Below are positions 1,650 through 6,154 of a stretch of 64,000 nt of DNA, one piece after another. Position 1 is the first letter of the stretch. Each line of letters begins with the position of its first letter. The DNA comes from Agaricus subrufescens (Eukaryota; Basidiomycota; Agaricomycetes; Agaricales; Agaricaceae). The position numbers and the translations under genes were made by a program. Below the pieces are notes generated by a model. That model was not told the origin of the DNA. It saw nothing but the letters and a program-made list of their open reading frames with translations, and did not search any database. The DNA lies in contig CM057060.1 of the NCBI GenBank assembly GCA_029945375.1, positions 620,001 to 684,000 of the forward strand, read 5' to 3'.

Positions 1650-1979
1650 TTAATTTTCCACATGGTCATACTCTTTTTTCTCTCTTCTACAAAAAAAAAT
1701 CTCTTGTATCTCCCTCAAGTCTGATTTTTCAGCTTAAATAAGCTTTGAAATATGCCTTGTTTTAATGTTAATGATAAGGGAAAAAAAAACTATATTTGTT
1801 TACTGACCCTTAAATTTGTCCCTTTTCCTTTCAGTAGGGCAGTAAGGAAGAATACAAAGTTTGCTTCCCTTTGCATCTCCAGGAAAAAACATAACTTGAC
1901 CATTGGAAACCATTCCACAGATAAGCACTTGTAGCTTTGGTGATTTCTGGAGGAACTGCTTTGTTTGATGATCAATAGG
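1650..1979 (-). CDS. Possible 3'-terminal exons of the NACHT gene
   Basis: Two exons can be read beyond the tandem array. The first (1979-1808, 57 codons plus 1 nt) follows an acceptor TTCCACAAG and begins PIDHQTKQFL; it is open in phase 0, the same phase as the last secure exon of the NACHT gene at 3885 and as every 3-nt microexon of the array. It ends at a GTCAGT donor. An 88-nt intron with a TCAG acceptor leads to a short last exon (1720-1650) ending in TAA. No domain is recognised. It could also be an unrelated gene remnant or chance open frame, because the region is CpG-depleted and probably mutated. Confidence 0.35.
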
Positions 1980-2040
1980 CTTGTGGAATTGAAATAAGAT
2001 AAGCATTTATAAACTGCAGTCTACTAGTTGGTATACTTAC

Positions 2041-3884
2041 AATCTAAGGCAAAGTAAAGATTTGAAGGGAAAATGGATCAGTGACACTCATAATTTATGA
2101 AGCAATAAACTTGCAAGCTAATTGAAGGCAATTACACAAATGAAAATGATGAGTTTTAGAGAATAGGTTACTAAGTGACAGACTTACATGCTAATAGAAA
2201 AGAATTATAAAAGAGAAGATGATTAGCCACAAACTATAGGCCATGAACTCATAGACTTACAAACTAATCCACACCAATTATAGAAGAGAAAATGATTAGT
2301 CAGACACAACAGATCACCAACTCATAGACATACCCACTGATCCACACCAGAAGAGAAATGACGAGTAGTGCCACCTACGCCGGACCCACACCAATTGTGT
2401 GTAAGAGATCACCAACTCAAGTACCGAAATGACTTACATCCTGGACCAATTGTAAGAAAACGACGAGAGAAACACCACAGGCCACCAATGAACGGACTTC
2501 TACCAATTCGATCCACACCAATTGGTAAGACACCACAGAAATGAACCACTTACATCCCGATTGACACCATAAGCTGCGCCACCAACGAATTGACTTTTCT
2601 ACACCCCGATCCACACCACCTGTAAGAGAAATTATTTAGTCGACATTACAATACCAATGAGAATGGACTTACCACCCGATCCACACCAATTTGTAAGAAA
2701 AAACATAGCCGACACTGTGTCACCAATGAATGGACTCTTACATCCCGATCGGGACACCACCAGGTAAGAGAAAACGACGAGCGACACCACAAGTGTCACC
2801 AATGAATTCGACTTACCACCGATACCATCCGAGTCGACCGCCGCGCTACCAACGAACGGCTTACACCATCCATCAGAAGAGAAAATGATGAGACTTACAT
2901 CCTGACACCACACGGTTTCGACACCACAGGCGTCACCAATGAACTTACATCCCCGGACGACGTTACGCGCCACCGATCCACACCACACCAATGGGTGTAA
3001 GAGAAAATGATGAGTCACACCACAGTCACCAATGAACGGACTTACCACCGATCCACACCAATTGTGTAAGAGAAAATGATGAGTCGACACCACAAGTGCC
3101 ACCAATGAACGACTTACATCCTGATCCACACCAATCAAGGCAGGAAACATGAGTCGACACCACAGGTCACCAACGAATGGACTTACCACCTGATCCACAC
3201 CAATCAGAAGAGAAAATGATGAGTCGACACCACAAATACCACCAACGAATCTGGACCTTACACCGATCCACACCAATTGTAAAGAGAAAATGATGAGTCG
3301 ACACCACGCGTCACCAATGAACGGACTTGCCACCGATCCACACCAATTGTGTAATGATTTAAAATTGATTTACGGACTTACCTACCGATCTACACCACCG
3401 ACGGGTCACCAATGAACGACTGGCTACGCCGATCCACACCAATGTAAGAAAACGATTTAGTCGACACCACAGTCACCAATGAAATTTTACCACCGACTTC
3501 AGACAGCCACACCAATGAAATCTGATCCCACACCAATTGTAGAAGAGAAAATGATGAGTCAGACACCACAGGTCACCAATGAATGGACTTACCACCTGAT
3601 CCACACCAATTGTAGAAGAGAAAATGATGAGTCAGACACCACAGGTCACCAATGAATGGACTTACCACCTGATCCACACCAATTGTAGAAGAGAAAATGA
3701 TGAGTCAGACACCACAGGTCACCAATGAATGGACTTACATCCTGATCCACACCAATTGTAGAAGAGAAAATGATGAGTCAGACACCACAGGTCACCAATG
3801 AATGGACTTACATCCTGATCCACACCAATTGTAGAAGATAAAATGATCAATCACAGACTAAAGGTCTCCAAGTCATAGACTTAC
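2041..3884 (-). repeat. Tandem array of about 24 intron-like 73-bp units
   Basis: Read on the minus strand, each unit is a 70-nt intron (donor GTAAGT, branch-like CTGACTCAT, tract TTTTCTCTTCTAC, acceptor GGATCAG) followed by exactly 3 nt. Clean introns lie at 3884-3815, 3811-3742, 3738-3669 and 3665-3596, separated by trinucleotides GAT, GAT, GTG and GTG. At the far end, strongly diverged units (about 2041-2345) keep the 70-nt length in three cases and 71 nt in one, keep GT or GC...AG, and are separated by TGG, TTT, CAT, CTT and ATT. The 5' exon (ending 3885), all trinucleotides and the exon at 1979 are in phase 0. Units between about 2361 and 3494 are scrambled by small indels. The array could be spliced unit by unit, as one long intron, or may be a non-genic minisatellite. 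Confidence 0.8.
2361..3494. other. Scrambled core of the array, CpG-bearing
   Basis: Units here differ from the clean unit by many small indels and substitutions that vary from unit to unit. Typical changes are loss of the middle base in CTG or CAG (CCTGATCC to CCGATCC, GTCAGACACC to GTCGACACC) and ATGG to ACGG, each of which creates a CpG. Flanking units on both sides have no CpG at all. This looks more like poor consensus of a long-read assembly over a collapsed or miscounted repeat than real divergence, but it cannot be settled from sequence alone. Confidence 0.5.
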
Positions 3885-6154
3885 CAATTTAGCTATATAC
3901 TTTCCATCATAATTATAGTCAACATGTATATCTTTGAAAACTGCCTCCCGAAACATCCCACTCTTAGTAAACTCATGTTCATATTCCTGTAACAACAATA
4001 ATGAGAGTAGGAAATATCTGATCGTATGTATGATGTAACCTTCCATGCTCTGAATGCCAGATGAACGAATTGGAATATCATTTTAGGAGCATTATCTTCA
4101 GTCAAGTGACCATGTGCAGAGTCGCAAAGATCGACCATGTTGATCCTTCGTAAAGAGTTTACACACTCAACGTGCTGTGGTCTTGATGAGAGCTCCCTGT
4201 GAGGCTTTTCCCTCTCAATTATCCCGCGCAGCAGAGTTTTACTCATATCCCTGAGCATGCCCGTGGTAAATTCTGGCATTCCCCACATCTCGTTACGGGA
4301 TAAATTGGCACCCGGGACTGAAAGCCAGTATAAGCACTCCTCCAATGCGACTAAAATGTACTCAGAACATACCAGCATTCTCCCCAAAGTGTTCAAACCA
4401 CATCGCAAGATATCCCGATAGCACATTGTCCTCCATACCACGAACGTCAATATGAAATTCTCCTGATCTCTCCGCATCCATCAAAAAGTCGGGGAAAGAA
4501 GCATGTAAGAACGTCAATGGTTTCTTATCTGCTTCTTCCCAAGGCGGTATCTTGATTGTCGATATGCATTTGATCAGAGCCGAATAAGCTCGGTCCAACT
4601 CTAGCTGGAGAACGATGGACATTCCTTTGAGGGTTCGGGTTTTCGACTCAGCAGGAAGTTTCAAAAAGTCGCCACTGCGGAATGACAATGCCAGCCCGAG
4701 CAAGAGTTTTGTTGTGGGCAACACCTCTGGTGAAATCTGAGAGAGAATCTCCGCATACAAGTTGTCGAGTATCCTGAAGGGCCGCTCTCTACTAGGCACA
4801 CCCCCCGAGCGATCAATGACAGATAAGACGATGGCAAGGCGTGATACAGGGCCAGAGCCACCAGGATCCCCGATGAATCGAGCTACAATCTGGGCGAAGA
4901 TGAAGAGGCCAGAAGATGCGTTTACGAGCTTTGCAAGCTCAGCTTCCGACGGCCAATTATGTGGGAGAGGGACGAATGATTCTTCTAGTATGGTCTTGAA
5001 GGTGTCAACCAGGAAGCGTCGAACATCACCGCGAGAATCTGGGGAGTCGATGAAGATAGAGTGTGATTCAAACTGGCCTTGTATCAAGGTCTCTCTGAAC
5101 GTGCTGGTTATATGGACCTCCGGACGACTGGCAATGATCCATGCGAGGGGCGTGTCACGATTCTCCCGCGTAAACTTGCTGACGATTCGGATAATGTCCT
5201 GTTGGGGCTTCACACCGTCGACCTCGTCAAGCCCATCCAGCAGTATAGCTATGGATGGTCCACCCGCTCCAATCTTCCTCACTACGAATGGATCGGTGAT
5301 GAAGGCTTGGAATTGAGTCTCCATGTTTTTGTCGAGAATGCGGGGATTGGTAGCGATCAGGTCCACGATATAGTCATGGTAAGGCTTGATACGTTCAGCG
5401 AGCTGATATGTGATGGTGGTGAAGATACGTTTTGGGTCGTTACGGTCGTTCGGTCGTGAGATAAACACAGAAACGACGCGATCGCCTATAGATTCCGCAA
5501 AGGTTTGCATGATGGCAGATTTACCCACTCCAGCTGGTCCGCTAATCAGGAAAAGGGAATTCGACCGCAAAATGTTGTTGAACCAGGTAAGGAGTAACTC
5601 GAGAATTGCTTCACGTGTGCCAGGATGACACCTGGGAGGGTATTGGCGCGAAGCATCATCATGGGCTGCACCACTAAGGATATACTTCAGAAGGAATTGC
5701 ATGACTAGGGATAGGTGAATGAGCGTGAATCTCGAATGGATGACAAACTGATTCTTACTCTGGTAGACTTTATCATCCTTGTGTATTTCTGTCACGTTCC
5801 CGTGTATTTCTGTCGCGTTCAAAGTGCCAATATTGAAGTTGTGCGCTCCGGGTAAGACACTAGTCGAACCAGATTGAACTGCGATGACCATAAATTCCCG
5901 ATTATCATGAAAGTATACAGAAAACGTACCTTGGATGTCTAGAGAAGCCATGGCAGGACCTGCAGAACCAGATTGATTGACCATGCTGGTGGTAGACGTC
6001 GGGTGGGAGGCTTGAGGGGGGCCTGAGGCAACGATGAATTATGACTGTAGTTTCACGCGAAAATGCGCATAAACATACCAGAGGTGGCCGGTACTGGCCT
6101 AGCAGAGCCCGGGCTTCCAGACCTGGGATCAGCTACCGGATTGTCAACAGGCAT
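3885..6154 (-). CDS. NACHT-domain NTPase (NLR-like), 3' end open
   Basis: P-loop NTPase of the NACHT/STAND class, expected to act as a nucleotide-dependent switch in fungal NLR-like proteins. Exons: 6154-6079, 6022-4373, 4317-4040, 3986-3885, all phase-consistent. Walker A is GPAGVGKS, Walker B-like is ILLDGLDEVDG, and IIASRPE follows as in NACHT sensor regions. The N-terminal 130 or so residues form a low-complexity linker and a short beta-rich segment seen in Agaricomycete NACHT proteins. I chose ATG 6154 (MPVDNPVADP); the open frame continues upstream without an ATG. After the NTPase the protein has an alpha-helical stretch but no ANK, WD40 or TPR repeats are recognised. The last secure exon ends in AAATTG at a GTAAGT donor that opens the tandem intron array, so the C-terminus is unresolved. 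The first exon and upstream region are duplicated at 13.3-13.8 kb. Confidence 0.8.

Follow-up and report, generated by a model that had tools for sequence, protein, structure and literature searches.

Tandem short intron-like units separated by predicted single-codon exons in NACHT receptor-like genes of the mushroom Agaricus subrufescens

About 20 immune-receptor-like genes in the genome of Agaricus subrufescens carry arrays of short tandem intron-like units that are spaced exactly one codon apart. The same anatomy recurs in the sister genes, i.e., continuous in-frame chains of units in which the splice letters are kept and the spacer codons vary more than the introns that surround them. The 3-nt spacers of these GT..AG chains are predicted to be one-codon exons, and they would probably supply one residue each to a hypervariable tract of an NLR-like receptor. 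The product would likely be a tract of 4 to 31 residues in a C-terminal domain. The analysis started from a gene in a window of 64,000 nt (GenBank assembly GCA_029945375.1, contig CM057060.1, positions 620,001 to 684,000), to which all coordinates below refer unless a contig or another locus is named.

Anatomy of the gene in the window

The gene is located on the minus strand and begins with an exon (4373..5984) that encodes an NPHP3_N/NACHT NTPase (Pfam, NPHP3_N 1.5e-15 and NACHT 3.8e-7); this exon is delimited by its open frame and a predicted GTATGT donor at 4372, and its start codon is uncertain. An ordinary intron (4318..4372, GTATGT..CAG), predicted from the sequence and from comparison with paralogs, is followed by exon 2 (4040..4317), an open frame of 92 amino acids that has a counterpart in the paralogs examined and no match in Pfam. 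A second ordinary intron (3987..4039, GTTACA..CAG), predicted by paralog comparison, leads to exon 3 (3885..3986), the final exon ahead of the array, which comprises 34 codons, terminates in phase 0 with KYIAKL, and has a counterpart in front of the sister arrays.

The array itself has a 73-nt period, which was detected by Tandem Repeats Finder, and its units start with GTAAGT, GTATGT, or GCAAGT, end with AG, and are followed by 3 nt. Its clean 5' part (3593..3884) consists of four 70-nt introns (3884-3815, 3811-3742, 3738-3669, and 3665-3596) with the microexons GAT, GAT, GTG, and GTG. The ragged middle (2334..3592), with 17 aligned units that contain insertions, deletions, or both according to the wraparound alignment, closes with the microexon TGG at 2336-2334. 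The clean but diverged 3' part (2041..2333) has introns of 70, 70, 70, and 71 nt (2333-2264, 2260-2191, 2187-2118, and 2114-2044) and the microexons TTT, CAT, CTT, and ATT, and a last intron of 61 nt (1980..2040) was placed by wraparound alignment and by the parse of the sister arrays. The first-pass annotation of this DNA had described the four clean units, the diverged units of the far end, and a chain of about 24 introns; the units at both ends were confirmed, but the alignment resolves the chain into 26 units. Nine of these are clean, with four in 3884-3593 and the remaining five in 2333-1980.

Behind the array follows a C-terminal exon (1803..1979) with 59 codons (PIDHQTKQFLQ..LICG..PYCP), and a further exon beyond it is possible. 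As had been noted before, exon 3 and the C-terminal exon are both open in the phase-0 frame, and the reading frame therefore survives the inclusion and the skipping of microexons alike.

An expanded family of array genes

The genome (44.65 Mb in 44 contigs) was searched with several parts of the gene. At least 68 matches were found with one array unit as the query, at least 137 with a unit of the 72-nt type, at least 25 with the C-terminal exon, and at least 81 with the NACHT exon (81 of 910 candidates scored). Arrays are present in at least 25 places, 21 of them distinct once near-identical copies are merged, and belong to one NACHT/NPHP3_N gene family in which the sister arrays lie at an equivalent point of the gene and connect two conserved exons in frame. 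Their period is 71 or 72 nt, and the period of 73 nt is confined to the window. The longest chain of junctions amounts to at least 4 in 25 of 36 loci and to 0 or 1 in the remaining 11. A chance origin of the pattern was rejected, as 200 first-order Markov resamplings reached at most 2, compared with 5 in the gene region of the window and up to 25 in sister loci.

An array stands directly upstream of 21 of the 25 matches to the C-terminal exon. Two further matches (L037 and L042) are array-less loci with a stop each, a partial match on contig C7 (L043) borders the end of the sequence retrieved and has no array upstream, and another partial match (C25:127.0 kb) is 1.7 kb away from an array. Four array places lack a matching exon directly downstream; two of them are situated at contig ends, one is truncated, and one is at C25:128.8 kb. 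The last is an extra array of nine junctions (L012, C25:128.8-129.4 kb) whose near upstream region has no listed NACHT match, and it looks like a gene fragment.

Near-identical copies occur for L010/L009 (98.6%), L011/L014 (98.9-99.8%), and L045/L030 (99.8%). The loci L028 and L029, which are both located on C6 at a distance of 0.56 Mb, differ by one mismatch in 6940 and represent either a recent segmental copy or an assembly duplicate. Two contigs end within arrays, i.e., C27 at its end (L010) and C25 at its start (L045), and these two contigs resemble second haplotype copies of regions on C1 and C4. Damage was seen in some array genes, as one in-frame TAG interrupts the NACHT match in each of L009, L010, L028, and L029. 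Unrelated sequence, perhaps inserted there, breaks off the array of a NACHT gene on C8 (L047, 4125-4900) after 13 junctions.

Continuous in-frame chains

For 13 arrays, the whole stretch between the first donor and the C-terminal exon was parsed, with GT or GC and AG as requirements of the parser. The introns are of the GT..AG type and about 60 to 75 nt long, with a modal length of 68, 69, or 70 nt, and exactly 3 nt follow each of them. Eight of the 13 arrays are unbroken, with 5 to 26 introns: L041 (26 introns, 25 codons), L028 (24 and 23), L030 (23 and 22), L035 (21 and 20), L033 (19 and 18), L014 and its near-identical copy L011 (18 and 17), and L038 (5 and 4). One fused intron each was found in L034, L036, L040, L015, and L031. 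In the longest unbroken array, L041 (C8:1362-1368 kb), the predicted codons read in order PGPIYLAAAYLGHPVGYDLPPAHFS. Every spacer of L030 measures 3 nt although its introns vary from 61 to 75 nt.

Parsed genes have between 4 and 31 microexons, 231 in total over 12 arrays. The last intron measures 59 to 61 nt in all 13 arrays that were parsed end to end, and the terminal units are unlike the homogenised middle units, as would be expected if unequal crossing-over acts on the middle. The predicted spliced products of L035 (758 amino acids) and L041 (670 amino acids) are open throughout, and that of L028 (584 amino acids) lacks stops only if read from an internal ATG. The first-pass annotation had proposed the serial duplication of an intron within a NACHT gene and a variable tract as a possible outcome, and the sister arrays, whose splice letters, 3-nt spacing, and frame are preserved amid varying codons, are in agreement with this proposal.

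Constraint on the splice letters

As the parser requires GT or GC and AG, the conservation of donors as such is a biased measure, and losses were counted instead. Five letters were scored in 11 arrays (the donor's G, T, and +5 G and the acceptor's A and G), and lost junctions were inferred from fused lengths. Only 5 of 232 junctions are broken, compared with 63.7 expected if the letters had drifted like interior sites. The contrast is largest in the most diverged arrays, e.g., L015 with 1 broken junction of 32 (15.8 expected; P 1e-8) and L030 with 0 of 22 (12.8 expected; P 4e-9), and the test is significant for eight of the 11 arrays individually, the exceptions being L033 (P 0.06), L040 (0.41), and L031 (0.42). 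The donor is GTAAGT in 226 of 243 array introns, whereas this motif was found in 0 of 8 predicted donors of ordinary introns in four genes (the window gene, L028, L035, and L041). The GT..AG ends of the array units thus appear to be under constraint, as in spliceosomal introns.

Variability of the microexon codons

Codons were counted in 12 of the 25 array places, after exclusion of the four near-identical copies, the window, and other arrays with ragged or unparsed units, and mean diversities were calculated from units of modal length in 11 of these arrays, L038 with three such units having been dropped. The mean diversity of codon positions 1 and 2 is 0.669, compared with 0.106 for the intron interior (Wilcoxon P 0.0005, with arrays that are paralogs and as such not fully independent) and a parser-biased value of 0.016 for the donor. 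One of the two positions ranks first in all 11 arrays, and neither falls below third among 71 to 72 columns, whereas the third codon position is invariant in 5 of the 11 arrays and ranks fourth or lower in the other six. Even between modal-length units whose introns are identical to the letter, the codons differ in 88 of 105 (nonindependent) pairs.

Among the 231 microexons of the 12 arrays, 193 conform to NNT, and all 20 amino acids are represented. A-ending codons (CGA, CAA, GGA, and GAA) are frequent beside NNT in L036 and L040 and rare in the other arrays. No stop codon was found in these 231 microexons, which proves little because only 1.7 were expected; since no NNT codon is a stop, changes at the first two positions, which are free, carry no such risk. 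Codons of the type AGN are absent from the same 231 microexons (3.2 expected), and L047 has one AGT; this absence would be weakly consistent with the avoidance of a false acceptor.

A first, wider tally comprised 316 microexons and included a few false junctions (TTG within some older introns). Small samples of usable units show little or no codon excess in this tally, as in the window (n = 6; ranks 1, 15, and 15), L016 (n = 4; 19, 19, and 43), and L038 (n = 2; codons invariant), and L030 showed ranks 8, 5, and 16 before it was reparsed.

Closely related copies document differences on the level of single units. L011 and L014 differ in three adjacent units and in the length of one intron, between L034 and L035 a CGT stands against an ATT and units were gained or lost, and L030 and L045 are identical in all units present in both. 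The codon order differs between L009 and L010, and their best alignment has GAT against CAT behind an identical intron; this alignment of units is not unique, because the introns are near identical, and some of the difference may stem from ragged assembly.

Alternative explanations

Tandem repeats within introns are common, and the phase-0 flanking exons preserve the frame, so that the whole array might be part of a single long intron that contains a minisatellite, and the 3-nt pieces would then never enter the message. We regard this as improbable, since diverged arrays retain the internal splice letters, the spacing of exactly 3 nt is maintained throughout eight unbroken arrays, and the codons are hypervariable, yet with a third base that is mostly T. 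A regulatory function of recursive or slow splicing, i.e., a splicing timer with the codons as by-products, would take account of the need to remove 20 or more introns 3 nt apart in turn, but it leaves the codons as the most variable columns unexplained and seems very improbable. Rather unlikely, too, is the explanation that the excess of codon variation stems from local hypermutation, or from gene conversion that affects the introns only, and not from selection for residue diversity. NNT codons offer no synonymous yardstick, and our measure is therefore one of diversity only. Nevertheless, the variation sits at positions 1 and 2 and not at the third, and unequal crossing-over would move intron and codon jointly, yet the great majority of pairs with identical introns differ in their codon. 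Predicted one-codon exons that contribute to a variable tract accordingly remain our preferred explanation for the family.

For the array in the window the situation is different, and we lean slightly towards the view that it is a decayed or misassembled copy whose ragged middle does not represent what the cell carries or uses. Raggedness affects 17 of its 26 units; in the wraparound alignment, in which the placing of these units is uncertain, the acceptor AG is missing in 11 of the 17 and GT or GC is kept in 15, and the first of them can still be read as a 71-nt GT..AG intron (3592-3522). The 1188 nt of 3522-2335 contain 62 CpG, whereas none occurs in the clean parts of 292 and 355 nt, a contrast that could be explained by consensus error or by a decayed stretch. 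In addition, contig C27 terminates within a sister array, and L009, L010, and L013 show ragged stretches, too. Other long arrays, however, are clean end to end, and arrays as such can thus be assembled. Recurrent changes in the ragged middle create CG (TCTGAC to TCGAC, CAGG to CGG), and these may be basecalling or consensus errors or real.

A possible mechanism

If the spacers are exons, the introns with their GTAAGT donors would hold the splice information, and the codon would thus be free to vary. Near-identical introns may recombine unequally, whereby codons would be added, removed, and reordered, and diversifying selection would maintain the differences between them. By analogy with the truffle genes discussed below, some microexons may be skipped at no cost to the frame, and one gene would then give rise to several variants of the tract. 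A more far-reaching proposal, which we put forward tentatively and hold to be possible rather than probable, is that the units act as codon cassettes in which the repeated intron is splice signal and recombination substrate at once, so that single codons could be added, swapped, or skipped to generate a Dscam-like repertoire of loops that arose independently of the truffle system.

Protein context of the tract

Flanking exons from 11 loci align to the C-terminal domain of Agaricus bisporus NACHT proteins (hhalign probability of 96%), in which the matching region is annotated as one stretch. The structure model is that of an A. bisporus relative (P0013), not of the array genes themselves; in this domain it has a strand and two short strands, then a helix and three further strands, and pLDDT averages over 10 residues range from 66 to 93. 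According to a weak alignment, the tract may enter a small C-terminal alpha/beta domain just before the helix, where it would likely form a recognition loop.

The C-terminal part has no match in Pfam, and its spliced form as a protein query against 5.8 billion proteins (only those sharing short words) resulted in 42 candidates, none with an E value of ≤1 and none carrying the C-terminal tract. The predicted spliced L041 matches NPHP3_N (3.2e-14), with NACHT below the Pfam cut-off. Ankyrin repeats were not detected by Pfam in exons 1, 2, and 3 and the C-terminal exon of the window gene or in spliced L041. A coding repeat domain of the WD40/ANK/TPR type was considered for the array and rejected, since Pfam gave no repeat match; neither of the array periods 71 and 73 nt is divisible by 3, in contrast to that of a coding tandem repeat. 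A search of the window against Rfam at gathering scores returned nothing. The closest named protein to the NACHT exon is from Agaricus bisporus (57%), and a metagenome protein reaches 73% (among the best 120 of 386 matches); for a RING protein, the corresponding values are 78% (Agaricus bisporus) and 90% (metagenome). Receptors with such arrays are likely missed by standard gene prediction.

Relation to known systems

The first-pass annotation knew of no described array of this kind, a statement that has to be revised in the light of the literature. Tens or dozens of alternatively spliced, codon-sized microexons of 3 bp have been reported for the NACHT-ankyrin genes of Tuber melanosporum (Iotti et al. 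2012, as cited in PMC4986451, PMC3689799, PMC9815663, and PMC10197012), and, as far as these citing passages describe it, the kind of array is thus already known. The two systems share a fungal NACHT-type NLR family, tens of 3-bp exons, and codon-wise diversification of the C terminus, and the 25 array places (21 distinct) form an expanded paralogous family here as do the nank-type genes of Tuber. They differ in that Tuber is an ascomycete and Agaricus a basidiomycete, and in the ankyrin repeats of the Tuber genes. For Tuber, alternative splicing is cited, whereas for A. subrufescens it is a prediction; comparisons of codon with intron diversity and tests of splice-letter constraint were made here and are not mentioned in the passages that cite the Tuber work. 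No basidiomycete case is named in the titles and abstract openings that were searched, a body of literature that excludes most subscription journals. The case described here is that of a basidiomycete, shows evidence of codon diversification, and differs by having no ankyrin repeats in the sequences scanned.

Fungal NLRs with WD40, ANK, or TPR domains have been described as having highly similar repeats with few hypervariable positions that are subject to unequal crossing-over in the sensor region (PMC9815663). Similar repeats, hypervariable positions, unequal crossing-over, and the location in an NLR sensor region are common to both, but the repeats of those proteins are coding, whereas in A. 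subrufescens an intron is repeated and the coding part of a unit would be only 3 nt.

The arrays of mutually exclusive exons in insect Dscam are comparable insofar as one gene could yield many receptor variants by splicing; the exons of the mushroom arrays, in contrast, are single codons that stand in series and are not mutually exclusive, and their skipping is a prediction. Introns have also been multiplied in fungi as stwintrons and introner elements, which are nested or dispersed, whereas the introns described here are arranged in tandem with one-codon exons.

Implications

Fungal NLR genes diversify fast by several routes (PMC9815663). If our interpretation is true, A. subrufescens would be a second case of a fungus that diversifies its receptors one codon at a time. 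Microexon arrays would then, if confirmed, be no oddity of truffles but present in both large branches of the higher fungi, and the strategy would either have been reached independently or be very old. Genes with 20 to 30 consecutive introns and exons of 3 nt would also probe the limits of splicing.
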